Shown here: positions 1 through 25,646 of the stretch, piece by piece
How positions within the stretch are numbered: the first letter of the stretch is position 1
How the letters are laid out: each line of letters opens with the position of its first letter
Assembly: GCA_014879445.1 (NCBI GenBank)
Contig: JACSSC010000025.1
Coordinates: 1 to 64,000, forward strand
Direction: 5' to 3'
Source: Candidatus Competibacteraceae bacterium
GTDB taxonomy: Bacteria > Bacteroidota > Bacteroidia > CAIKAF01
Length of the DNA: 64,000 nucleotides
Program-made: the position numbers and the translations under genes
The notes under the pieces: generated by a model
What the model was told of the DNA's origin: nothing
The model's database searches: none
The model's input: the letters and a program-made list of their open reading frames with translations, nothing else

Positions 1-1063
1 AATCCTTCGATAACGAATGTAACCACAGCCAACAGCGGTACTTATACCGTAACAGTAACGGATGCCAACAGCTGTACGGCAACGGCCAGTACGAATGTTA
101 CTATTTATGCCTTACCTACTCCCACAGCCAACAACAATACACCGGTTTGCGAAGGAGTTACCGTGAGCATTACATCCACACCTGCCGGCATGGCTTCCTA
201 TAATTGGACTGGTCCGGGTGGTTATACATCTTCCACACAAAATCCATCCATTACCAATCCAACCACAGCCGAAAGTGGCACTTATACCGTAACAGTAACA
301 GATGGAAATGGCTGTACAGCCACTGCCAGCACTGTGGTAACTGTAAACGCCATGCCAATACCAACAGCCGGTAATAATGGCCCTGTATGTAGCGGAGTAG
401 ATATCAATTTAACTTCTTCAGGAGGTGCATCCTATAGTTGGAGCGGCCCGGGTGGCTATATATCCGTCGCTCAAAATCCTGTATTAAGCCCTACAACACC
501 CTCTATGAGCGGTACTTATACGGTTACCGTGTCATCGGGTGCAGGATGTTCGGCCACAGCAACTACTTCGGTAACGGTAAATGCCTTGCCTGTACCTGTG
601 GCAGCTAATGATGGCCCACATTGCGAAGGACTGGTGCTTACACTCAATTCGATGGGTGGGGTTAGTTATAACTGGACGGGTCCGGGCGGATACACATCAA
701 CTGACCAAAGCCCTGTAATAAATCCGACAGCAGCATCCCAAACCGGCACCTATACCGTAACGGTAACAGATGTGAATGGTTGTACAGCAACAACCAGCAC
801 AGATGTAACGATTTACGCTTTGCCTGTTCCATCTGCTGCAAGTAGCGGCCCTGCCTGCCAAGGGCTTTCGATTAATTTGGCCTCAGGCGGTGGCGTAAGT
901 TACAGTTGGGTAGGCCCTAATGCCTTCTCATCGGCTATGCAAAACCCTGTATTGAATAATGTGGATATCAGCCATGCCGGAACTTATACCGTAACGGTAA
1001 CCAGCAGTGATGGCTGTACGGCATCAACTACTGTAGATGTTGTAGTAAATCCGTTGCCACAGC
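1..1063 (+). repeat. Tandem Ig-domain coding repeats, period 234-240 bp
   Basis: The phrase (c/t)ttataccgtaac.gtaac recurs at about 41, 281, 515, 749 and 983, giving spacings of 240, 234, 234 and 234 bases. Each unit encodes one Ig-like module, and the first is cut by the window edge. The third copy (515) is the most diverged at DNA level. Such arrays can change copy number by recombination and can collapse in short-read assemblies. Confidence 0.85.
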
Positions 1064-1836
1064 CCAATTATAGTGCAGCCAATATAATAGGTTGCAGCCC
1101 AGTATGTGCTGATTTTAGCGATTTGAGCGTAATCGCCACAGGAGCAGTTACAGGTTGGGAGTGGAGTGCCAATGGCAACGTATTTAGCAATGCACAAAAC
1201 CCAACACAGTGCTTCAGCACACCGGGTACATATGATATATTGTTAACAGCCACTTCTGATCAGGGCTGTACTTCATCGTTTATCATCAATGATTTGGTAA
1301 CGGTATATGTTAATCCTATAGCTGACTTTACCATATATCCAGAGGTGATTATATCCAATAATCCAACGGCAAACTTCACCAATACAAGTACAGCCAATGC
1401 GATATTATGGAATTGGAACTTTGGAGATGGCACATTTGGCACCGATGAAAATCCGATACATTTATATGCAGATACCGGACAGTTTTGCATTACGCTGACG
1501 GTACAAACCGCACAGGGATGTCAGGACACCACTACACATTGCTTGTATATCTTCCCCGAGTATAAAATATACATACCTAACACATTTACACCCAATGATG
1601 ATAAGATTAATGATTTCTTTACCGTTGGCGGTATGGGAATTGAGAGTATAGAAATGCAAATCTTTAATCGTTGGGGAGAGTCGGTTTATACCACGACCTC
1701 AATGTTGGGTTGGCCCGGAACGATTGGTAGCACAGAAGTTATAGCCAAGCAAGATGTATATGTGTACAAGATTTGGGTAATCACCTTTCAGGGCGAAGTG
1801 TTCGAATACTACGGACACGTAAATCTCCTGCGCTAA
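1..1836 (+). CDS. Ig-repeat surface adhesin with gliding-motility/T9SS C-terminal domain (5' end outside window)
   Basis: The frame is open from base 1 with no start, so the gene begins upstream; the track's GTG at 163 is internal. The visible part is a run of about 78-80-residue Ig-like repeats (Ig_7/SprB-repeat type), each with a YxWxGPxG motif, a SGTYTVTVTD-type strand and a CTA(T/S)AST ending. A PKD domain follows (WNFGDGTFGTDENP) and then a C-terminal domain beginning IYIPNTFTPNDDKINDFF with FNRWGE. That ending is the gliding motility-associated (CHU_C, type B) sorting domain, which sends proteins through the type IX secretion system to the cell surface. Expected role: a secreted or surface-bound adhesin. 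The repeats are conserved enough to be recognised at DNA level. Family assignment is firm; the ligand is unknown. Confidence 0.9.
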   Translation, partial: NPSITNVTTANSGTYTVTVTDANSCTATASTNVTIYALPTPTANNNTPVCEGVTVSITSTPAGMASYNWTGPGGYTSSTQNPSITNPTTAESGTYTVTVTDGNGCTATASTVVTVNAMPIPTAGNNGPVCSGVDINLTSSGGASYSWSGPGGYISVAQNPVLSPTTPSMSGTYTVTVSSGAGCSATATTSVTVNALPVPVAANDGPHCEGLVLTLNSMGGVSYNWTGPGGYTSTDQSPVINPTAASQTGTYTVTVTDVNGCTATTSTDVTIYALPVPSAASSGPACQGLSINLASGGGVSYSWVGPNAFSSAMQNPVLNNVDISHAGTYTVTVTSSDGCTASTTVDVVVNPLPQPNYSAANIIGCSPVCADFSDLSVIATGAVTGWEWSANGNVFSNAQNPTQCFSTPGTYDILLTATSDQGCTSSFIINDLVTVYVNPIADFTIYPEVIISNNPTANFTNTSTANAILWNWNFGDGTFGTDENPIHLYADTGQFCITLTVQTAQGCQDTTTHCLYIFPEYKIYIPNTFTPNDDKINDFFTVGGMGIESIEMQIFNRWGESVYTTTSMLGWPGTIGSTEVIAKQDVYVYKIWVITFQGEVFEYYGHVNLLR

Positions 1837-14185: not shown

Positions 14186-16537
14186 CTATTTTTGATGACG
14201 CTGCATAGGATTAGGCACCTTTTCATTTTCATCGTAATTTATTTTGGATTTAAATAAATCGAATCGAGATTTAACATCTAGCAGAGGCCAGTTGTTATTA
14301 CGTTCATCAATGTCGGCTGTTTCTTTGAATGGGTCAATCTGAATAGAAAGCACTTTCTTTTCTTTAAGAAAAGTTTTGACAACTTTCTGCTCATTTTTTC
14401 GCCAGATGTATGCACTTATACGTGTTATTTCACTGCTACCATCTGCATAATTCCATTGAATAATAACCGGCATTACCAACCCACCTTTATTAGAAAGATG
14501 TAATTCATACAAATAATAATTTTCAAATTTCTTAAATTCATTATCTGTAAGGGTTTCCCAGTCATCGTAGTATTTCTCAACAAAACGAAAACTTGAGTCA
14601 TTTTCGGGATTATAGTAGTAATAAAAATCACGAAGGGTTGTATCAGTATCCACCAAAAAAACCATCCCGCTTTCCTGGTTTCGTTGTTTGGTAATATGTT
14701 TGAACTTATCTCTGTATTGAGGGCGAATCAGTACTGTATCGGTACTATAAGGTACTTTTTGAGCATGATTTAGTTGAAAAGTACGCACACTATCCAAAGA
14801 AATATCGACGGGCTGAATATCAAAAAACCAACCTCGCCAAAACCAATCTAAATCCACTCCTGAAGCATCTTCCATAGTGCGAAAAAAATCAGCTGGCGTA
14901 GGGTGTTTGTATGCCCATCGACGACAATATTGAGAAAATGCAAAATCGAAAAGTTCGCGTCCCATGATTGTTTCACGAAGAATATTGAGCGCTGTAGCCG
15001 GTTTCCCGTAAGCATTATGCCCAAACTGAATGATGTTCTCACTATTGGTCATGATGGGTTCGAGCTGTTCTTTTGGCAATCGCATGTAATCCACGATCTT
15101 ATGAGCTGGGCCTCTTGAAGAAGGATAGTTATTGTCAAACTCTTGTTCAGCTAAAAACTGCACAAAAGTATTCAGGCCTTCGTCCATCCAACTCCACTGA
15201 CGTTCATCACTATTAATAATCATGGGAAAAAAGTTGTGCCCTACTTCGTGAATAATAACGCTAATCATTCCATATTTCATGCGTTCGCTGTATGAACCAT
15301 CCGGCTCTGTGCGTCCATAATTAAATGCAATCATAGGATATTCCATACCATTGGAGGCCTCAACGCTAATGGCAACAGGATATTGGTAAGGTATAGTGTA
15401 TTTGGAATAAACGCGAATTGTGTGAGCCACGACTTTGGTTGAATATTTTCTGTAGAGATGATAAGATTCTTTGGGATAAAAACTCATACACATTACTTTC
15501 TTCCCATGGTTGTCAATCGCCATGGCATCCCAAATGAATTTGCGTGAACTTCCCCAAGCAAAATCACGAACATTCTCAGCAGTAAATTCCCATGTTTTAT
15601 ACTGATTATGGACAGGATTTTGTTCTTTCTGTCGGGCCTCTTCCAACGTAACAATCTCAATAGGTTCATGCGTATTTTGTGCTTGTTGCCATCTGCTCCA
15701 AGCAGCTGATGGGAGTACTTTTTTTAGATTTACACAAGTGCCTGTAGATGCAACCACATGGTCGGCAGGGACCGTCATTCTAACCCTGTAATTACCGAAT
15801 GGCAGTGCAAATTCTCCACGTCCAGTAAACTGCTTATTATTCCACCCTTGAAAATCACTGTACACAGCCATCCTGGGGAACCACTGTGTGATTGTAAAGA
15901 GTGCATTACCGTCAGGCATCATTTCATAACCGCCTCTTCCTCCAATACGCATTCTTTCCGGAATTTTGTATTTCCATTTGATGCGTATGGATATCTTTCC
16001 CCCTGCTTTAAGTGGTGTCGGCAAATCTATTCGCATCATGGTTTGATGAATGGTATAAGGCAATGGATTCCCTTTGGCATCAGCCACAAGTAAAATATTA
16101 ACCCCATAACCTTCAAGCCATGTATCTGATTTAAACCTATCAAGCGTTTCAGTTAACACGGGTGTGCCTATTCTGCTTCCGTCAAAAAAATTGCTTTCTG
16201 CCGATGGGTGATGTTGGTTTTCATCAAGCTGTATCCATAAATAATGAAGCAGATCGGGTGAATAGTTATAATAGGTTATGATTTCATCGCCTTCCAATAT
16301 TCGGTTGGGCTCATCCAATCGAGCACTAATATCATAATCGGCACGCTGCTGCCAATACTGATGTCCAGGCGCTCCCGAAGCTGTTCGATAGGTATTGGGA
16401 TCAGAGAGCATTATGCCTAATTGCTCAAATTTATTCCCATGATTAGATTGGGGATTATGTTGCAAATTTTGTGTATAGATGTTATTTACCCAACACAAAA
16501 AACCAAACATGATGATATACTTGTATGCCATTTTCAT
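14186..16537 (-). CDS. M1-family metallopeptidase, exported
   Basis: A 783-residue protein with an N-terminal signal peptide (about 1-22). The gluzincin zinc site is HEVGH (His430, His434) followed 18 residues later by Glu453 in WMDEGLNTF, the exact M1 spacing. The exopeptidase loop that reads GAMEN in classical aminopeptidases is NGMEYPM here, as in many Bacteroidota M1-like enzymes, so aminopeptidase activity is likely but specificity is open. It has no T9SS domain and is probably periplasmic or surface-attached. Its start overlaps the stop of the HupE/UreJ gene by 4 bases (ATGA), indicating coupling. Confidence 0.9.
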   Translation of the reverse strand: MKMAYKYIIMFGFLCWVNNIYTQNLQHNPQSNHGNKFEQLGIMLSDPNTYRTASGAPGHQYWQQRADYDISARLDEPNRILEGDEIITYYNYSPDLLHYLWIQLDENQHHPSAESNFFDGSRIGTPVLTETLDRFKSDTWLEGYGVNILLVADAKGNPLPYTIHQTMMRIDLPTPLKAGGKISIRIKWKYKIPERMRIGGRGGYEMMPDGNALFTITQWFPRMAVYSDFQGWNNKQFTGRGEFALPFGNYRVRMTVPADHVVASTGTCVNLKKVLPSAAWSRWQQAQNTHEPIEIVTLEEARQKEQNPVHNQYKTWEFTAENVRDFAWGSSRKFIWDAMAIDNHGKKVMCMSFYPKESYHLYRKYSTKVVAHTIRVYSKYTIPYQYPVAISVEASNGMEYPMIAFNYGRTEPDGSYSERMKYGMISVIIHEVGHNFFPMIINSDERQWSWMDEGLNTFVQFLAEQEFDNNYPSSRGPAHKIVDYMRLPKEQLEPIMTNSENIIQFGHNAYGKPATALNILRETIMGRELFDFAFSQYCRRWAYKHPTPADFFRTMEDASGVDLDWFWRGWFFDIQPVDISLDSVRTFQLNHAQKVPYSTDTVLIRPQYRDKFKHITKQRNQESGMVFLVDTDTTLRDFYYYYNPENDSSFRFVEKYYDDWETLTDNEFKKFENYYLYELHLSNKGGLVMPVIIQWNYADGSSEITRISAYIWRKNEQKVVKTFLKEKKVLSIQIDPFKETADIDERNNNWPLLDVKSRFDLFKSKINYDENEKVPNPMQRHQK

Positions 16538-17124
16538 GATAATAATTCTCCAAATCTTTCAAGAACAAGCATTAATGCAATGCCTGAAACAGCAGCAGAA
16601 ACATATTGATTCCAACTCCGTTTGCTTATTCCAAAAATGATTGGTAAAAGTACAGAAATAAATAATACAGCTGCAAGAATAATCAACTGGCCGGCCTCAA
16701 TACCCAAGTTGAATGCAAAAAGCGGAATGAGTAAGTCCTGCGTTTTGCCCAACATTGATTTTAAAAGAGTGGAAAACCCCATTCCATGAACCAGCCCAAA
16801 CCCTATGGATGCAAGATAATGATACAGATTAGGAAATAATCTATTTTCATTTGCATATCGAAGATTATAAAGACAGGTTATAAAAATCGTTAAAGCAATC
16901 AGCCATTCTACTAAAACAGTAGGAAAAGAAAAAATGTCCCATACGCTCAATGCCAATGTAAGCGAATGGCCTACAGTAAACCCTGTAACAAGAACTAGTA
17001 AAACGCGCCATTGATGAAATCCATAACCGCCACACAAGGCAAGCAGAAATAAGATATGGTCATATCCCGAAAAATCAGCAATATGCTCCAATCCTGTACG
17101 AAAAAAAATGTAGAAATCTGTCAA
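16534..17124 (-). CDS. HupE/UreJ-family membrane protein
   Basis: An approximately 196-residue polytopic protein with conserved membrane His motifs: GLEHIADFSGYDHILFLLAL, GFTVGHSLTLAL and GFGLVHGMGFSTLL, characteristic of HupE/UreJ, a family linked to nickel or cobalt handling in some bacteria. The track's start at 17208 would overlap the divergent DUF6702 gene by 83 bases and adds a tail absent from family members. A TTG at 17124 (TTG ACA GAT TTC) gives the expected N-terminus, so I place the start there. It is translationally coupled to the M1 peptidase. Metal transport is possible but unproven for this Bacteroidota branch. Confidence 0.82.
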   Translation of the reverse strand: MTDFYIFFRTGLEHIADFSGYDHILFLLALCGGYGFHQWRVLLVLVTGFTVGHSLTLALSVWDIFSFPTVLVEWLIALTIFITCLYNLRYANENRLFPNLYHYLASIGFGLVHGMGFSTLLKSMLGKTQDLLIPLFAFNLGIEAGQLIILAAVLFISVLLPIIFGISKRSWNQYVSAAVSGIALMLVLERFGELLS

Positions 17125-17146
17125 TATGTTTATTTTTGAAACGAAT

Positions 17147-17671
17147 ATGAGCAGCAAGTTTAATGTTTTTTTTGTATTAATTATTCTTGTATTGATTGGT
17201 AATTCCAATTCGATGCATGCTTTTCCGCATCCATTTTATGTTAGTATTACAGAAATCAGAGTGGAAACATATGCTAAATCCATAACTGTAAGTTGCCGCA
17301 TGTTTATGGATGATTTGGAAGATGCCATAAGTAAGTTATACGAAGAAAAAACTGACCTGATAAAGAGCGTTGAAAAACAATCCCATGCAGAAATCTTGTC
17401 GCAATATATTCGACAACATTTACAAATTTTAAGTGGTGGGCAATTTTGTCTGTTGCAAATGGTGGGTTACGAAATAGAAGACGAAGCTGTTTGGTGTCAT
17501 TTAACATCAGACAACATTTCATTTGATGGCGCAATTCATGTTACCAATCGCCTGCTTTATGATTTTATATCCGGTCAAGTTAATATTATACATGTATATA
17601 TTAATAATCAACGCCAAACTTCTCGTCTGATATACCCCGATTCAAAGCATACATTTTCTATTACTAACTAA
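17147..17671 (+). CDS. DUF6702-family exported protein
   Basis: About 174 residues from the ATG at 17147 (the track uses 17126). There is a signal peptide (FNVFFVLIILVLIGNSNSM), then HPFYVSITEIRVE and a motif of the form C.MFMDDLEDAI, which are the conserved features of DUF6702. Members often sit next to M1 peptidases and HupE-type proteins in Bacteroidota, as here. Function is unknown; the protein is probably periplasmic. Its stop codon is followed directly by an ATG of the next gene (TAAATG), so the two are likely co-transcribed. Confidence 0.82.
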   Translation: MSSKFNVFFVLIILVLIGNSNSMHAFPHPFYVSITEIRVETYAKSITVSCRMFMDDLEDAISKLYEEKTDLIKSVEKQSHAEILSQYIRQHLQILSGGQFCLLQMVGYEIEDEAVWCHLTSDNISFDGAIHVTNRLLYDFISGQVNIIHVYINNQRQTSRLIYPDSKHTFSITN

Positions 17672-17689
17672 ATGATTCAAATTTTTATA

Positions 17690-20107
17690 ATGTTTAGAAA
17701 AATCCAACCACTATACTTCACACTTATATTGCTTTCGGGGTTCATGAGTTTGACCATTAAAGCACAACACGCCGTACGTGGCGAAGTGATTTTGCAAGAC
17801 GGATCACCGGTTGAATTTGCCTCTATCGTATTGTACAATCTACAAGACACATCTCGATTTATTGGCACTGTTACGAGTGCAGATGGCAAATTTGAGTTCT
17901 TGTCTGTACCTTTCAAATCAGCATTCGTTCGTGTTTCCATGATAGGATATACAACTTCACAATCACCTAATTTCGTACTACCTCATTCCGAGATGGTGAC
18001 AGTTATAATGCAACCCTCTATGCAAGATATCCAAGAATTCAGTATTGTAGATTTTAAGCCCAAACTCGAAATAGAGGCAGGAAAAACTACGCTAAATCTC
18101 GAAAACTCAACCATTGGTGCAGGAGTAAATGCCTTAGAATTAATTCGCCGTATTCCAGGTGTGTTTGTGGATAGCGAAGGGAACATATCAATAAAAGGGA
18201 AGAGTGGCGTTAATGTGTATATTGACGACAAACCCACATACATGAATGGTCGTGAGTTAAAGAATCTGCTTACCAGCATCAATGCTTCAAATATTGAAAA
18301 GATAGAAGTGCTTACTCAACCCGGTGTTGCATTTGACGCTGAAGGCAATGCCGGTATTCTGAATATACGACTTAAGAAAAAAATGAATCTAGGATTTAAT
18401 GCAACGCTGGAAGGTCTTTTTGGGCAAGGATTTTATCCTAAGGCCGGCACAACATTTACTTTTAATTATGGCAAAGGGAAATGGCATTTATTTGGCACTT
18501 ATGCATATAATTTCAACAAAGGCAGAATGGAAACCAGTATGGCCCGAACGATTGGAAATGCCGCTTATGAAAGGGTCTATATTGGGGTTTCCAGAGACCA
18601 TTCGCATATGGCTAAATTGGGTTTTGATTATGACATAAATTCAAAAATTACTATCGGTGCATTTGTAAATGCAAATCTTACACATAACGATTGGAAAGGG
18701 GGAGGAACAGCTGTTTTCTCTAATCCCGTTGCGCAAATCACAGATTCTTTAAACACCACCAGTGATTATACACCTTGGCATTCATATAATTTTCAATTCA
18801 ACCTGAATACACGTTGGAAAATTGATTCAGCCGGACAAAAATTAAGTGCACAAATTGATGGAGGCACATATTTGGAATATACTTATGGAAATGTTTGGTT
18901 TAATTACTTCAATACCTGGGGCGACACAATCCGACCATCACAACATAGATGGTTCTCACAAACCCCCGCCATATACCTGATTTCAGGAAAAGCCGATTAT
19001 GTGCATCCTAAACTCTTGGGCTTTCATTTCGAAGCCGGTATCAAAACCAGTTTCGTTACTAACGATGCACCCGTAGAATACAGAACACGTGATTCGCTAC
19101 TCAACGAAGTAATTATAGCAGGACAAACCAATCACTTTCTATATCAAGAAAATATCAATGCCATTTACTTTTCTTTCAAACGGAATTTCAAAAAATGGGG
19201 CTTTAATTTTGGGCTTAGAGGCGAGCACAGTAATATTACCGGCACTCAACTCCTCTCAGGACAAAAAAACAAACAACATTATTTCAATATTTTTCCAACT
19301 GCCGGCATCAATATTAATCCACATTCCAAGCACTCCATCTCTTTACTATACACTCGTCGAATTGACCGACCTTCATACGACGAGTTAAATCCATTTATTT
19401 ATGTACTGGATAATTTCAGCACATATCAAGGCAACCCTAACCTTTTGCCTGCATTTTCTGATAACCTTGAATTCAATTATACCCTATTTGAGGCGCTTAC
19501 ACTTACCTCATCTTATAGTTATATCTCGAATTCTGCCTCCGAAGTTTTTATAGAAGACCCAAATCAACCAAACAAATTGATTTTTACTTCCGGCAACATT
19601 AAATCTGTTCAAAATTTTTCTTCCGGGTTAACCTTTGCCATGCCCGTTGGCAAATGGCTTTTTATGATGGTTGGCGGCATGGGTGTTTATAATTATTTCA
19701 ATGATACCATTCTGAATATCTCTAGCAATGGTTGGTTTGGTATGTTTAACGGCTATTTTGAATTTTATCTTCCACTCAATTTTTCGATTGAGCTAAGCGG
19801 ATATGCTTTAACAGGTATGCCAGCCGGACAACAAATGACTCGACCTATGGGAGAAGTGAATTTGGGCGCTTCAAAAACTTTTTTTAATGATCAATTAACA
19901 CTTAAATGCAGCTTGAGTGATGTGTTTTTTACAACACCATTTCGTGCCGATGGAAACGCCCCTTCCGGCGAAACTTTTTACAGTACTTTCATGTGGGATA
20001 GCCGTGTTTTCAGATTTTCTCTAAGCTATAAGATTGGAAAAGGAAATAAGCAATATGAAAATAAAACTGACGCTATTTTTGAAAGAGTAGGAGGTGGCAG
20101 AAAATAA
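17690..20107 (+). CDS. Outer-membrane beta-barrel receptor (TonB-dependent-receptor-like, OMP_b-brl_3)
   Basis: About 805 residues. In order: a signal peptide ending near TIKAQ, a carboxypeptidase-regulatory-like domain (AVRGEVILQDGSPVEFASIVL), a plug-like domain (LELIRRIPGVFVDSEGNISI, VNVYIDDKPTYMNG) and a long barrel ending RFSLSYKIGKG. This is the layout of the outer-membrane beta-barrel family 3 proteins, relatives of TonB-dependent receptors. The ligand is unknown. I favour the ATG at 17690 (MFRKIQ) over the one at 17672. The stop is only 3 bases from the convergent thioredoxin gene. The short charged C-terminus (VGGGRK) follows an otherwise ordinary barrel. Confidence 0.85.
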   Translation: MFRKIQPLYFTLILLSGFMSLTIKAQHAVRGEVILQDGSPVEFASIVLYNLQDTSRFIGTVTSADGKFEFLSVPFKSAFVRVSMIGYTTSQSPNFVLPHSEMVTVIMQPSMQDIQEFSIVDFKPKLEIEAGKTTLNLENSTIGAGVNALELIRRIPGVFVDSEGNISIKGKSGVNVYIDDKPTYMNGRELKNLLTSINASNIEKIEVLTQPGVAFDAEGNAGILNIRLKKKMNLGFNATLEGLFGQGFYPKAGTTFTFNYGKGKWHLFGTYAYNFNKGRMETSMARTIGNAAYERVYIGVSRDHSHMAKLGFDYDINSKITIGAFVNANLTHNDWKGGGTAVFSNPVAQITDSLNTTSDYTPWHSYNFQFNLNTRWKIDSAGQKLSAQIDGGTYLEYTYGNVWFNYFNTWGDTIRPSQHRWFSQTPAIYLISGKADYVHPKLLGFHFEAGIKTSFVTNDAPVEYRTRDSLLNEVIIAGQTNHFLYQENINAIYFSFKRNFKKWGFNFGLRGEHSNITGTQLLSGQKNKQHYFNIFPTAGININPHSKHSISLLYTRRIDRPSYDELNPFIYVLDNFSTYQGNPNLLPAFSDNLEFNYTLFEALTLTSSYSYISNSASEVFIEDPNQPNKLIFTSGNIKSVQNFSSGLTFAMPVGKWLFMMVGGMGVYNYFNDTILNISSNGWFGMFNGYFEFYLPLNFSIELSGYALTGMPAGQQMTRPMGEVNLGASKTFFNDQLTLKCSLSDVFFTTPFRADGNAPSGETFYSTFMWDSRVFRFSLSYKIGKGNKQYENKTDAIFERVGGGRK

Positions 20108-20110
20108 AAA

Positions 20111-20638
20111 CTACTTCAACGTGGATTTGAATGATTGCATATACACTGGCCATTCAATGGTTTTGTATGAATCTGTGGCAAAATACATGAGAATGGGTTC
20201 AATCTCGGCAGGTTTCATAAAACCTGCAATGGGCTGTATCATACCCAAATTTTCATCCAGATATACGATAGTAGGATAGCTGAGTTTGCCTTGTAGCATT
20301 TCAGCGGCTAATTCATTATATCCATTTCTGCCACTAGCAACAAAATTATAGGTTTTACCATTAAATACAATCGGCGTTTTTTGCTCTGCATCTAACTTAA
20401 CAGGATGAAAATATGTATTCAAAATTTCAGAAATGACAGGATGTTGAAAAGTTTGTTGATCCATCACTTTGCACCATCCACACCAATCGGTATATACATC
20501 TATAAAAAATTTTTTCTTGTTTTCTTTATTCGCTTTTTCTGCCTGCTCAAGTGTCTTCCATTTTACATCCGACTGTGCATGAAGTGCCAACTGTGTACCT
20601 CCTGTTAGTATGGCCAAAAAAAGTAAGATTTTTTTCAT
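20111..20638 (-). CDS. Exported thioredoxin-fold protein (CGWC)
   Basis: About 175 residues from the ATG at 20638 (MKKILLFLAIL), which gives a clean signal peptide; the track's 27 extra residues look like untranslated leader. The redox motif is DWCGWCKVMD (Cys53, Cys56), followed by TFQHP and the cis-proline region LSYPTIVYLDE. Proteins of this kind are periplasmic thiol-disulfide oxidoreductases (thioredoxin_7/DsbD-gamma-like). The C-terminus, about 50 residues beyond the thioredoxin fold, is of unknown role. It lies about 93 bases downstream of the response regulator and may belong to that transcript, which would link thiol redox to the cysteine-rich and metal genes nearby (inference). Confidence 0.85.
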   Translation of the reverse strand: MKKILLFLAILTGGTQLALHAQSDVKWKTLEQAEKANKENKKKFFIDVYTDWCGWCKVMDQQTFQHPVISEILNTYFHPVKLDAEQKTPIVFNGKTYNFVASGRNGYNELAAEMLQGKLSYPTIVYLDENLGMIQPIAGFMKPAEIEPILMYFATDSYKTIEWPVYMQSFKSTLK

Positions 20639-20731
20639 AAAACTTATCATAACTGCATCTAAGATAAGAAAATTTTGCAATAATGCTTTCTTCAAATTCA
20701 TGTCATTGCCATTAATCATATCTTAATAATA

Positions 20732-21445
20732 TCAATTTTCGGGCACGATAAGCTTAAATCCTATCCCATGTACCACCTGAATTTTAATACGCTCGTCAGC
20801 AGACAGATATTTACGAAGTTTGGAAATAAAAACATCCATACTTCGACCGGTAAAATAATCATCCTTGCCCCAAACAGATTTCAAAAGTATTTCACGGGTA
20901 ATTACCTGATTTTTGTGCAAGCAGAGTATGCGTAGCAAATTGGCTTCCCGTTCAGTCAAATGACGAGAATCTTCTCCCTTTATCAGCACAAATTCGGGAT
21001 AATTGAACACGTAAATCCCTAACTCAAAAATATCTTTATTTTCGGGCGACATGGAAACTCCCTGGCTTCTTTTAAGGATGTTGCTTACCCGCAATACCAA
21101 TTCTTCCGTTGAAAACGGTTTGGTTATATAATCGTCTGCCCCAATTTTCAATCCCTTTATCCTATCCTCAGACAATGATTTAGCCGAAAGAAAAATGATA
21201 GGCACCGTAGTATTAATTTTTCGAATAAATTCAGCCACCTCATATCCGTCTTGATGAGGCAACATGATATCGAGGATACATAAATCAAATGATTGTGTGC
21301 CAAACTTCTGAATGGCAGATTGGCCATCTGTGCAAAGTGTAACTGTATAATTCTGCTCTTCAAGCAAATCTTTAACTACCATTCCCAAATTCTGGTCATC
21401 CTCAACATAAAGGATATGAACGAGTGAGATGTTGTTGTCTTCCAT
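20732..21445 (-). CDS. OmpR/PhoB-family response regulator
   Basis: A 237-residue protein: a receiver domain with acidic pocket VEDD, phospho-acceptor Asp59 in LCILDIMLP, Ser in FLSAKS and Lys in DYITKPFSTEEL; then a winged-helix DNA-binding domain (LTEREANLLRILC ... DVFISKLRKYL ... VHGIGFKL). It receives phosphate from the kinase encoded 6 bases upstream. Likely targets are nearby or autologous promoters; no operator was identified. In Bacteroidota, pairs of this type often regulate envelope or metal functions, but the stimulus is not visible from sequence. Confidence 0.93.
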   Translation of the reverse strand: MEDNNISLVHILYVEDDQNLGMVVKDLLEEQNYTVTLCTDGQSAIQKFGTQSFDLCILDIMLPHQDGYEVAEFIRKINTTVPIIFLSAKSLSEDRIKGLKIGADDYITKPFSTEELVLRVSNILKRSQGVSMSPENKDIFELGIYVFNYPEFVLIKGEDSRHLTEREANLLRILCLHKNQVITREILLKSVWGKDDYFTGRSMDVFISKLRKYLSADERIKIQVVHGIGFKLIVPEN

Positions 21446-21451
21446 AAATGA

Positions 21452-22741
21452 TCATTGATTATTTTGCAAAATTATTCTAAAAATCGTGCCAATTCCAGGC
21501 GTTGATGATAATTCTATCTTGCCTCCATGCAGTTTGACAATTTTTCTCACGTAGCTTAAGCCGAGCCCGAAACCCTTGACATTGTGAACATTACCAGTTG
21601 GAACGCGATAAAATTTCTCAAAAATCATTTTCTGATACTCTTTCGGAATGCCAATGCCGTTGTCTTGAATTTCAATTACTAAATGATGGTATTTGTTATA
21701 GGTTCGTATTTGAATTAAAGGGTCTTCTTTGCTGTATTTCAATGCATTATCAATTAAATTAAAAATAACATTAGTCAGATGATCGTTATCACCTAAGATA
21801 TGGTCAGATTGGGCATCTAAAGCGAGTTTAAGTTCACAATTTTTTTCAATGGCACGAACGCGAATTTTCTCAACCACATTTTTTATCAAAGCATGGGCAT
21901 TTATAAGATTCCTTTTCAATTTAGTACGTGTTGAGTCAAACATGGCAATATTTAATATTTGATCAACCTGTGACTTAAGCCGCATACCTTCATCTTTGAT
22001 GATATGGGCATATCTCTTAACTTTCTCCGGATTCTGGTGGATGGATTCTTTTAACAACTGATCGCTTGATACTGTAATAGTAGCAATAGGGGTTTTAAAC
22101 TCATGCGTCATATTATTAATAAAATCGGTTTTAATTTCAGATAATTTTTTTTGTTTGAAAATAGCCATAAGAAGATATACAAAAAATAAAACAATGATGA
22201 ATACCCCGATTGAAGAGTATATCATAATGCCCATTTGCCTGGATATATACTTACCTTTGGAAGGAAAGAAAACACCAAAACGATGACTGTCTTTGTTTAA
22301 ATTGAAAGAAGATATGGAAGGAGATATCGGTTTGCTCTTCTTAACTACAACTCCGTTTTTATCCATTTCAAGAGCATGGCTCCAAATTACAGAATCAAGA
22401 AAACAATCGTAAATAACATATTGAAAATCGAGATAAATACCATATCGGTTAAACTCTATCAGAAGCAGATTTTCTAAATGGTCAGGACTGGTAGTATTCG
22501 TAATATCAACAGTAAAATAATCGGATGAAAATTTAGATACAGGTTCTCGTACACTCAATGTGTCTTTATTATAACGATTAATCTGTCCGGCAACACTCAT
22601 CAAAGCCAAGCTAACTCGATTGTCAAACTGCTCTTCCGTAAAATCTCTTGCTTTCTGCACCCAGTACACTTGTAGCCAAATCAAACCACCCAAAATAAAA
22701 GCTGAGAAGAAAATAATAAAACGGATCGTACGATTTGTCAC
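21452..22741 (-). CDS. Sensor histidine kinase
   Basis: A 429-residue inner-membrane kinase starting with GTG at 22741. Transmembrane helices at about 8-28 and 172-196 enclose a periplasmic sensor of about 140 residues with no domain I recognise. The DHp helix has NNMTHEFKTPIATI with phospho-His213; the ATPase domain has NLIDNALKYS (N box), DNGIGIP (G1) and GFGLGLSYV (G2). It forms a kinase-regulator operon with the gene 6 bases downstream. It is divergent from the HYC_CC_PP/TonB-receptor genes, with 108 bases between the starts, so control of those genes is a natural hypothesis. Confidence 0.93.
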   Translation of the reverse strand: MTNRTIRFIIFFSAFILGGLIWLQVYWVQKARDFTEEQFDNRVSLALMSVAGQINRYNKDTLSVREPVSKFSSDYFTVDITNTTSPDHLENLLLIEFNRYGIYLDFQYVIYDCFLDSVIWSHALEMDKNGVVVKKSKPISPSISSFNLNKDSHRFGVFFPSKGKYISRQMGIMIYSSIGVFIIVLFFVYLLMAIFKQKKLSEIKTDFINNMTHEFKTPIATITVSSDQLLKESIHQNPEKVKRYAHIIKDEGMRLKSQVDQILNIAMFDSTRTKLKRNLINAHALIKNVVEKIRVRAIEKNCELKLALDAQSDHILGDNDHLTNVIFNLIDNALKYSKEDPLIQIRTYNKYHHLVIEIQDNGIGIPKEYQKMIFEKFYRVPTGNVHNVKGFGLGLSYVRKIVKLHGGKIELSSTPGIGTIFRIILQNNQ

Positions 22742-22754
22742 AGTATTTTTTTTT

Positions 22755-22762
22755 CAAAGGTA
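22755..22762 (-). promoter_or_regulatory. -7 box of the kinase/regulator operon
   Basis: On the minus strand this reads TACCTTTG, a full match to TAnnTTTG, 13 bases upstream of the GTG start. A convincing -33 element at the right spacing was not found. Confidence 0.45.
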
Positions 22763-22837
22763 CAATTTTAGTTTTTTGAAAAACAGGCAACTGAGAATTT
22801 CTGCTCTATGAAACATAATAAATAATGGTAAAATTAT

Positions 22838-22845
22838 TACATTTG
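22838..22845 (+). promoter_or_regulatory. -7 box of the HYC_CC_PP gene, implying a leaderless transcript
   Basis: TACATTTG matches the Bacteroidota -7 consensus and ends only 4 bases before the ATG at 22850. Transcription would begin at or next to the start codon. No TTG was found at the usual distance upstream, which may mean an activator is needed. Confidence 0.4.
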
Positions 22846-22849
22846 TGTA

Positions 22850-23341
22850 ATGAGAAAACGACAAGTAATAGCATTATTTCTGCTTTTGATTTTCGCTACA
22901 GGGATTCAAGGTTTTAGTATTACGCGTCATTATTGCACACATTCGGGCGAAGCATTTTATGGTTTAGGTTATGCTCCGAAGCATACCTGCTCGACAGATC
23001 TCGAATTAAATCAAGATGCCTGCTGTGCTAAAGAGCAAGAGAGCAAGCAGGAAAATCAAAATAAGTCATGCTGTGCCACAAATATTGAATCTTCATCACA
23101 TAACCATACAGATTTCACAGAAGATTGTTGCAGTGATGAGCATGCATACTTTCAGGTCTTAACGCAATTTTTAAAAGATTCTGTCAACCTGAGTTTTTTA
23201 TCATTTTATACACCCCCGACGGTTATCATTTATTATCAGTCGTATTCATTTTTCTTACTACAAAATGAAGCATTTTTTTGGAATGATCCCGAAGATATTT
23301 CAGTTCCCGACTTAGCTTATATTTCGGTATTTCGCATTTGA
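22850..23341 (+). CDS. HYC_CC_PP-family exported cysteine/histidine-rich protein
   Basis: A 163-residue protein with an N-terminal hydrophobic signal segment, then RHYCTHSGE (the HYC motif), two clusters of adjacent cysteines (DACCAKE, KSCCATN) and a His/Cys/Asp stretch (SSHNHTDFTEDCCSDEH), and a Tyr/Phe-rich C-terminal part containing TPP. These are the features behind the name HYC_CC_PP. The many paired cysteines and histidines suggest soft-metal (for example copper) binding outside the cytoplasm; this is inference from composition. It is followed by a TonB receptor on the same strand and faces the kinase gene, a layout consistent with metal sensing and handling. Confidence 0.8.
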   Translation: MRKRQVIALFLLLIFATGIQGFSITRHYCTHSGEAFYGLGYAPKHTCSTDLELNQDACCAKEQESKQENQNKSCCATNIESSSHNHTDFTEDCCSDEHAYFQVLTQFLKDSVNLSFLSFYTPPTVIIYYQSYSFFLLQNEAFFWNDPEDISVPDLAYISVFRI

Positions 23342-23426
23342 TTTTTCAGCTTATTGACATATAGCATCATCAACGATGTCAATTTCAGTATGCATTAATT
23401 TTGAAAAATCAATTGATGAAATTAAA

Positions 23427-25646
23427 ATGAAAAATATTTTTTTTATTATAATCATAAGCAGCATCTCGCTTATGACATTCTCGCAACATCCCGTAACGGG
23501 CATTGTGCAGGATGAAAATGGTACACCTTTAATGGGCGCAAATCTGTATTGGGCTCAATCACAAACTGGCACAATAACCGACACATCTGGATATTTCTCA
23601 ATTGCGCCACCCGATTCAATGGTTAATCCATTGATTGTATCTTATATTGGATATCAAACCGACACATTTTTGGTATCACCTGGCGATCGTGTAAAAATTA
23701 CACTAAATCCATATGCTCTATTAAACACAATTGTTATTGAAGCAACCACTCAGAGAAGCTTTTACTCTAGCCAGACAGCATCTCTTACAGAATATCTCAC
23801 ACAAAAAGAATTCAGAAAAGCCGCATGTTGCAACTTGTCAGAAAGTTTTGAAACCAATGCATCTGTTGATGTTAGTTTTACAGATGCATTAACGGGAGCC
23901 AAGCATATTCAAATGCTTGGATTAGATGGAAAATATGTGCAGCTTACCACCGAATTATTACCCTCAATTCGTGTTTTGGCTGCGCCATTTGGCCTAACAT
24001 ATATTGCAGGACCATGGCTTGAAAGCATCCAAATATCAAAAGGTGCAGGATCGGTTGTTAACGGATTTGAAGCCGTTACAGGTCAAATCAATATTGAATT
24101 ACGCAAACCGGAAGATGATAAACGGCTTCACTTGAATGTTTATGCCAATCATATGGGAAGAGCTGATGCGAATGCCATCTTCTCTCACCGATTTCGAAAT
24201 GGGAAATGGTCAACGTCATTCCTATGGCACGGAGATATCTTGGCCACAAAAATTGATCATAATAACGACAGTTTTTTGGATATGCCTTTAGTAAAACAAA
24301 CAAGCTTTGTGCACAGATGGAAATACAATGGGGATAGAATTGAAACCATGTTCGGTATCAAAGGATTAATAGAAGATCGAGAAGGCGGCAATCTTCCGTA
24401 TTTCAGAAACGATACGCTCTTCCCCATGTATGGATTTGGCATGCAAACATGGAGGGCTGAAGGTTTTTGGAAATTTGGCATCTTTTTTCCCGGACAGGAA
24501 TGGAAAAGTATTGGAATTCAAACCACCGGAATTTATCATGATCAGCGCGGATTTTTTGGCAACAAAAAATACACAGGCACCCATAGCCATGCATATTTAA
24601 ATATTATTTACCAGTCCATAATATCAAATACTAAGCACAAAATTAAAACAGGTGCCAGCTTTATGTTTGATCAAGTAGTCGAATCATTTGACTCTAGTTC
24701 TTTCAATCGTACAGAGTTTATTCCCGGAGCTTATGTTGAATACACCTTTGATAATCTTCGAAACCTCACGTTGGTTGCCGGAGGACGTGTTGATTATCAC
24801 TCTATGTTTGGCTTCTTCCCTCTTCCACGTATCAATCTGCGATGGGAGATTACAAAGGGTTTGATTATGAGAATATCTGGTGGTCGAGGATGGCGTGTTC
24901 CTTCCTTATTTGCAGAAAACACCCCTTTACTCGTATCATCGAGAAACTTAGTTTTTAATGGATATGAAATCAAACCTGAAGTAGCTTGGAATTATGGAGC
25001 TAGCATGCAATATACTTTTCAGGTTCGAAAAAGAGACGCTGTACTGGTGTTAGATTTTTTCAGAACAGATTTTACCAATCAGCTATTGGCTGATCGTGAA
25101 TCTCAATCAGAAATTAGATTTTACAATCTAGTAGGGGCTTCGTATTCCAATGTATTACAATTCTCATTCAGTATTGAGCCCATAAAAAAATTTGAGATTC
25201 GTGTTGCCTATAAATGGCAGGATGTACGCGCTACATTATCGGGTATATTGCAAGAAGTGCCGTTGGTTTCTACGCATAAAGCATTTGTAAACCTTAGTTA
25301 TACTACACCTAAATGGGGATTTACTTTTGATGTTACAGCCAAAATCAATGGCCCTTCTCGATTACCTGACATCATAGATCCAAGTGGACATACTTGGGGA
25401 ACATACACACCCTGGTATCCGGTTTTCAATGCTCAAATAACCAAAGATTTCAAAATACTATCATGGTATGTGGGTTGCGAAAACATAGGAGGATACACGC
25501 AACATAGCCCAATAATTGGAGCACAAAATCCATTTGGAAACGATTTTGATGCATCGCTGATATGGGCGCCTCTTTTTGGTCAGATGTTTTATACTGGATT
25601 GAGATTTGATTTGGAGTACAAGCAAAAAATAAAACAAAGTCAGTAA
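23427..25646 (+). CDS. TonB-dependent outer-membrane receptor
   Basis: About 739 residues from the ATG at 23427 (MKNIFF), which begins a good signal peptide ending near TFSQ; the track's 23376 start adds a poor leader. In order: a carboxypeptidase-regulatory-like domain (HPVTGIVQDENGTPLMGANL), a plug domain with KAACCNLSESFETNASVDVS and VVNGFEAVTGQINIEL, and a 22-strand-type barrel ending YTGLRFDLEYK. The CCNLSESFETN-type plug is one I associate with receptors adjacent to HYC_CC_PP and metal genes. Uptake of a metal or metal chelate is plausible, not shown. Its last 7 bases overlap the convergent comF gene. Confidence 0.88.
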   Translation: MKNIFFIIIISSISLMTFSQHPVTGIVQDENGTPLMGANLYWAQSQTGTITDTSGYFSIAPPDSMVNPLIVSYIGYQTDTFLVSPGDRVKITLNPYALLNTIVIEATTQRSFYSSQTASLTEYLTQKEFRKAACCNLSESFETNASVDVSFTDALTGAKHIQMLGLDGKYVQLTTELLPSIRVLAAPFGLTYIAGPWLESIQISKGAGSVVNGFEAVTGQINIELRKPEDDKRLHLNVYANHMGRADANAIFSHRFRNGKWSTSFLWHGDILATKIDHNNDSFLDMPLVKQTSFVHRWKYNGDRIETMFGIKGLIEDREGGNLPYFRNDTLFPMYGFGMQTWRAEGFWKFGIFFPGQEWKSIGIQTTGIYHDQRGFFGNKKYTGTHSHAYLNIIYQSIISNTKHKIKTGASFMFDQVVESFDSSSFNRTEFIPGAYVEYTFDNLRNLTLVAGGRVDYHSMFGFFPLPRINLRWEITKGLIMRISGGRGWRVPSLFAENTPLLVSSRNLVFNGYEIKPEVAWNYGASMQYTFQVRKRDAVLVLDFFRTDFTNQLLADRESQSEIRFYNLVGASYSNVLQFSFSIEPIKKFEIRVAYKWQDVRATLSGILQEVPLVSTHKAFVNLSYTTPKWGFTFDVTAKINGPSRLPDIIDPSGHTWGTYTPWYPVFNAQITKDFKILSWYVGCENIGGYTQHSPIIGAQNPFGNDFDASLIWAPLFGQMFYTGLRFDLEYKQKIKQSQ

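Follow-up and report, generated by a model that had tools for sequence, protein, structure and literature searches.

The window analysed here is a 64,000-nucleotide (nt) stretch of contig JACSSC010000025.1 (assembly GCA_014879445.1, deposited as Candidatus Competibacteraceae bacterium and placed in the Bacteroidota by GTDB). The element in question is a gene of the HYC_CC_PP family at 22850..23341 on the plus strand, which encodes an exported, cysteine-rich protein of 163 residues and precedes a gene for a TonB-dependent receptor on the same strand (23427..25646). This gene is probably a cis-acting leader open reading frame (ORF) for the receptor downstream, a reading to which we assign a probability of about 0.62. 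The two genes form a conserved module in which the receptor carries an invariant Cys-Cys pair in its plug, and a secreted HMA-domain protein joins them in most Bacteroidota.

Matches to NF047658, the model of the HYC_CC_PP family, were located directly upstream of the receptor and on the same strand in 28 genomes by comparison of coordinates. An HYC-like gene was also found to precede the receptor in 96 of the 108 loci with enough upstream sequence (118 loci in all); the profile behind this count was seeded from the upstream genes, so independent evidence comes from the NF047658 count. The receptor is present in 79 of 100 relatives. Cultivable relatives that carry the gene pair include Segetibacter koreensis (L136) and Spirosoma terrae (L147). 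The secreted HMA-domain protein, of ~118 residues, is part of the operon in 74 of the 118 loci, encoded between leader and receptor or downstream of both; it has a CxxC and a C-terminal CC as conserved cysteines, and all 24 of the proteins tested match Pfam HMA. The receptor and the HMA protein co-occur over the 100 genomes (76 with both, 14 with neither, 3 and 7 discordant, p 1.4e-9). Heme-copper oxidase was dropped as a phyletic marker, being near-universal (97/100) and uninformative. In the window's genome the HMA gene lies on a different contig (C15) from the receptor, where, at locus L211, the gene for the HMA partner (838-1218, minus strand; 118.7 bits with the operon HMA profile) is divergent from one for a 100-residue secreted Cys-rich protein (1310-1612, plus strand; KSCCAKGDD...).

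The HYC_CC_PP label given to the window protein in the original prediction stands as a family assignment, although its NF047658 score (14.3 bits) is below the curated cut-off of 28 bits. A search of the window's own genome with NF047658 returned no match for this reason. Membership holds because a profile made without the window's genus matches the protein over its full length in two pieces (E 6e-14, 49 bits). NF047658 is matched by 62 of the 68 members of the aligned HYC_CC_PP set and is above its cut-off in 114 of 198 sampled genomes of the class. The window protein has a signal peptide, eight cysteines and six histidines, and keeps both the HYC motif, with C29, and the CC at 93-94 (codons 23126..23131, plus strand). 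C29, C93 and C94 are invariant in the 68 aligned members and C59 is present in 65. Two CC pairs had been claimed for this protein; three were counted (58-59, 74-75, 93-94). The C-terminal PP of the family is fixed in place (P147 in 59 and P148 in 65 of the 68) at a distance of 56 ± 2.1 residues from the CC, a register kept by the window protein, and is followed by a tail of 16 residues. The N-terminal half is variable, with a C29 to C94 spacing of 32 ± 9, and identity between congeners is 34-37%, compared with 65-75% for their receptors. The predicted fold of the protein is poor and of low confidence (predicted local distance difference test, pLDDT, 69). A full-text literature search found no paper naming HYC_CC_PP and no published function for the family.

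A Bacteroidota -7 box, TACATTTG (22838..22845, plus strand), is situated 4 nt ahead of the HYC_CC_PP ATG in the window, and there is no TTTG at -33 of this gene. A TAnnTTTG box is found 4-6 nt before the start in both sister genomes too. In 42 of 95 family members no more than 11 nt separate the box from the start codon, most commonly 4 nt; among controls with signal-peptide-like starts, picked by the same rule, this holds for 3 of 254 genes (p 4e-24); a separate HYC_CC_PP set has the near-start box in 11 of 25. With a -7 box at such a short distance, the HYC_CC_PP mRNA is predicted to be leaderless or near-leaderless. This bears out the earlier remark that the promoter lacks a -33 match and may be leaderless. 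The activator that had been expected on this account does not follow, as an absent -33 box alone does not demand one, and the comparative evidence favours cis-acting control through the leader and an RNA stem.

Such a stem is predicted between the end of the leader and the start of the receptor. The receptor ORF opens at 23376 and runs to 25646, but its start is probably 23427, as residue 18 of the ORF is the first one covered by the family alignment. In the window, a left arm at 23329..23348, comprising the last codons and the stop codon of HYC_CC_PP, pairs over 19 base pairs (bp) with a right arm at 23402..23422, both on the plus strand, stopping 4 nt short of the receptor ATG. The minimum free energy of this region is -38.1 (z -4.15), and none of 500 shuffles was equally low. 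The number of paired bases is 17 when the receptor follows the leader (4.1 in shuffles), 15 when another gene, mostly HMA, follows (3.7 in shuffles) and 14 when CusA follows (2.5 in shuffles), compared with 2.8 in control gene pairs (3.5 in shuffles). Pairing of at least 8 bp between the stop region and the next start was present in the minimum-energy fold of 89 of 105 loci versus 9 of 70 controls, with the leader stop codon itself paired in 74 of the 105, and in a non-redundant set the stem was present in 32 of 38 versus the same 9 of 70 controls. As the stem alignments were too poor for pairwise covariation, reliance was placed on a swap test, in which the arms gave -14.7 kcal/mol with their own partners and -8.7 kcal/mol when swapped (controls, -9.2 and -9.1). 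The hairpin was rejected as an intrinsic terminator, there being no terminator-like U run. Rfam returned no family for the stem region; its one match, to snoR66, was weak and did not reach the gathering score.

In the mechanism that we propose, transcription would start at or beside the HYC_CC_PP ATG, and the nascent exported peptide would bear C29, C59, C93 and C94, the last pair ~56 residues ahead of the C-terminal proline motif. Since the stop region pairs with the stretch before the receptor start, whether a ribosome reaches the end of the leader would decide receptor translation: a ribosome arriving at the leader stop would melt the stem and expose the start of the receptor, and one held earlier would leave it closed. 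By analogy with the copper-sensing leaders CruR and CutF, a soft metal, most likely copper, on the emerging cysteines may alter the progress or speed of the ribosome, and the conserved last residues of the leader, F-x-I, could be a second pause site. The receptor would import the metal, and its plug cysteines might pass it to the periplasmic HMA chaperone encoded elsewhere in the genome. As an architecture the leader hypothesis is well supported by the computed features, namely the gene pair, the invariant cysteines, the position of the box, the stem, the fixed spacing and the use of the same leader on efflux operons. That translation is controlled, that a metal is sensed and is copper, that the ribosome arrests and which way the response goes are the parts that we infer, and this functional side is a proposal.

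CruR and CutF, both from Proteobacteria, are tested precedents for such a leader (PMC9426467, PMC9973294), and HYC_CC_PP shares with them its place as first gene of a metal operon, its export, a Cys motif and, at the level of the family, a fixed Cys-to-PP spacing. CutF, the leader of cutFOG in Rhodobacter capsulatus (PMC9973294), is likewise a small exported protein with a Cys motif and C-terminal prolines that heads a copper operon, and a stem-loop covers the ribosome site of its next gene; the counterpart in HYC_CC_PP is a prediction backed by shuffle, neighbour and swap controls. The copper motif of CutF is 45 residues from its C-terminal motif compared with ~56 in HYC_CC_PP, a distance long enough to clear the ribosome tunnel and the membrane by the estimate of the CutF paper (30 + 17 residues; PMC9973294). 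Unlike CutF, HYC_CC_PP has a predicted leaderless mRNA and a stem overlapping the leader stop codon. CruR (Bordetella pertussis bp2923; PMC9426467, PMC12992588), for which ribosome arrest has been demonstrated (PMC12992588), is also the first gene of a TonB-receptor operon and also has a conserved Cys motif at a fixed spacing from a C-terminal PP, but it differs in that its RAPP is only three residues away from the C-terminal end, its spacer measures 162 bp and it uses Rho termination.

The best-scoring NF047658 members are mostly not found before the receptor. They head CusA/CzcA efflux genes of the resistance-nodulation-division (RND) type, directly or after an HMA gene. HYC_CC_PP is thus not a dedicated partner of the receptor, and because one leader family serves both uptake and efflux operons, a regulatory role is favoured over a structural partnership with the receptor. 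HYC_CC_PP leaders were also observed before genes for DUF3347, HMBD, beta-propeller and type IX secretion system (T9SS)-sorted proteins (L036-L065), so the targets of the family are wider than the receptor and CusA. A tentative extension, for which we put the odds slightly below even, is that HYC_CC_PP proteins throughout the Bacteroidota form a class of their own, with no sequence relationship to CruR and CutF: exported nascent chains, translated from leaderless mRNA, that would sense copper and switch uptake (Cys-plug TonB receptor and HMA chaperone) and efflux (CusA) operons by means of a stop-codon/start-codon RNA stem. The CutF-like survey already predicts, in a general way, that the Bacteroidota have leaders of this kind: it reports many Bacteroidota members with TonB and RND neighbours and links HupE to His-rich CutF-like leaders, and its filter (PP in the last 15 residues) has the 16-residue tail of HYC_CC_PP at its edge (PMC9973294).

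If the leader role is true, it would provide a testable function for a family that over half of the genomes sampled from the class possess, and would fill a gap in the Bacteroidota, from which RAPP/RGPP copper leaders are reported to be missing (PMC12992588). It would also suggest that the receptor is a novel type of copper receptor in the outer membrane, and be a rare conserved example of leaderless mRNA in gene control.

A number of observations weigh against this role. The window protein is the sole member with E at 148 (P147-E148; codons 23288..23293, plus strand), so that the PP of the family is degenerate here; the motif is intact in both congeners that carry the gene. Because 16 codons separate the PP from the stop, a pause at this motif should keep the ribosome short of the stem, in contrast to SecM. 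Both the stems and the boxes are predicted features, and compared arm by arm, the stems show some double changes, with poor alignability. No match to DUF2946 (CutF/CruR) was found for the 68 members at E ≤ 1 among the 25 of 38 families listed. In addition, uptake and efflux operons need opposite copper responses, and one polarity under a simple copper-excess signal cannot serve both.

The receptor has a carboxypeptidase-regulatory domain (Pfam PF00593, PF13715), and the plug motif claimed for it, AACCNLSESFETN, was found at residues 149-161 of the ORF. Cys151 and Cys152 within it (codons 23826..23831, plus strand) are the only invariant cysteines in all 38 aligned receptors. Its structural model (pLDDT 87.5) matches TonB-dependent transporters of the PDB broadly, at ~12% identity, with ZnuD, BtuB and OprC all among the matches (OprC at rank 43, template modelling score 0.63-0.72). 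The transporter fold is shared with the copper transporters OprC, CrtA and MbnT. The CxxxM-HxM site of OprC was not found in the window receptor, which has no CxxxM and one HSM at 475, and CrtA is without conserved Cys (PMC12914433), whereas the plug CC is invariant in the family of the window receptor. The suggestion of an outer-membrane uptake module for a soft metal, probably copper, is supported by this CC, by the HMA partner and by neighbouring genes in some relatives, namely a CopA-type copper ATPase at 5 loci, of which one representative was scanned, and, in 15 loci, an AraC-type regulator with an HMA-like CxxC N-terminus. Copper import by the receptor is our best guess from this context. 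The 188-residue AraC-type regulator (L147:12296-12859 and 14 other loci) may control transcription of the module in some relatives. In Runella (L144:9176-9985, L145) an HMA-MauE fusion protein is encoded just before the receptor.

The same gene pair could be read in terms of a working protein rather than a leader. HYC_CC_PP would then be an exported metal-binding protein, a metallochaperone at the surface or in the periplasm that loads metal onto the receptor, with the stem merely coupling translation of both genes. The signal peptide, eight cysteines and six histidines are what such a protein would be expected to have, and the tight pairing with the receptor gene that NF047658 found independently in 28 genomes agrees with it. 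We nevertheless regard it as unlikely, since the same family heads CusA efflux operons without the receptor, the sequence diverges fast while the CC-PP spacing is kept, the fold prediction is poor, and the precedents CutF and CruR act in cis. It is quite unlikely, too, that the receptor takes up a different substrate, such as heme, cobalamin, zinc or a metallophore, and that HYC_CC_PP senses this substrate or export status, not copper. The breadth of the fold matches at ~12% identity, which include ZnuD and BtuB as well as OprC, leaves room for such a substrate, but the HMA partner, the copper ATPase, the HMA-AraC neighbours, the CusA operons and the invariant plug CC argue for copper.

The original prediction had placed three minus-strand genes in the module, and all five genes, including that for the CGWC thioredoxin, were confirmed from ORFs and Pfam matches. 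The three on the minus strand encode a histidine kinase with a GTG start (21452..22741), an OmpR-type, RprY-like response regulator (20732..21445) and a periplasmic CGWC thioredoxin-like protein (20111..20719; PF03190/PF13899). In this reading the two-component system would respond to metal by switching on the divergent HYC_CC_PP-receptor operon, and the thioredoxin would serve as redox partner. Such a module would suit the lack of a -33 box at HYC_CC_PP and the divergent layout, which is common to sister genome G003: kinase and Cys-rich gene are separated by a 108-nt spacer with one Bacteroidota -7 box per side, that of the kinase gene (TACCTTTG, 22755..22762, minus strand) being conserved in G003. 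Synteny and co-occurrence make this very improbable, and both the two-component system and the thioredoxin were rejected as parts of the module. Kinase orthologues occur in all 16 genomes of the family; except in the window and G003 they are on other contigs than the receptor, and G002 and G005 have the kinase but no receptor. The regulator adjoins the kinase in all ten relatives with a complete locus. Thioredoxin orthologues lie elsewhere in nearly all relatives, the exceptions being G003, where the gene adjoins the regulator at a contig end (L199), and G027. Neither the two-component system nor the thioredoxin showed significant co-occurrence with the receptor (p 0.21 and 0.28). The regulator is RprY-like and not CusR/CopR-like: RprY of RprXY (NF051850) is its best match, end to end, at 267 bits, under the cut-off of 370, and the scores with the metal two-component families TIGR01386/TIGR01387 (CusRS/CopRS) were 111.5 and 133.7 bits, below cut-offs of 292.6 and 279.2. 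The three genes are best read as core genes that are neighbours of the module.

Two further arrangements were observed. In G027 (C141, 101-3703) the thioredoxin, HYC_CC_PP, receptor and HMA genes occur in tandem on one strand, the sole such case seen with thioredoxin. Within the window, at 16534-20107, a HupE/UreJ-like gene is divergent from a DUF6702 gene, which is followed by an OMP_b-brl_3 receptor, possibly a second metal-related set.

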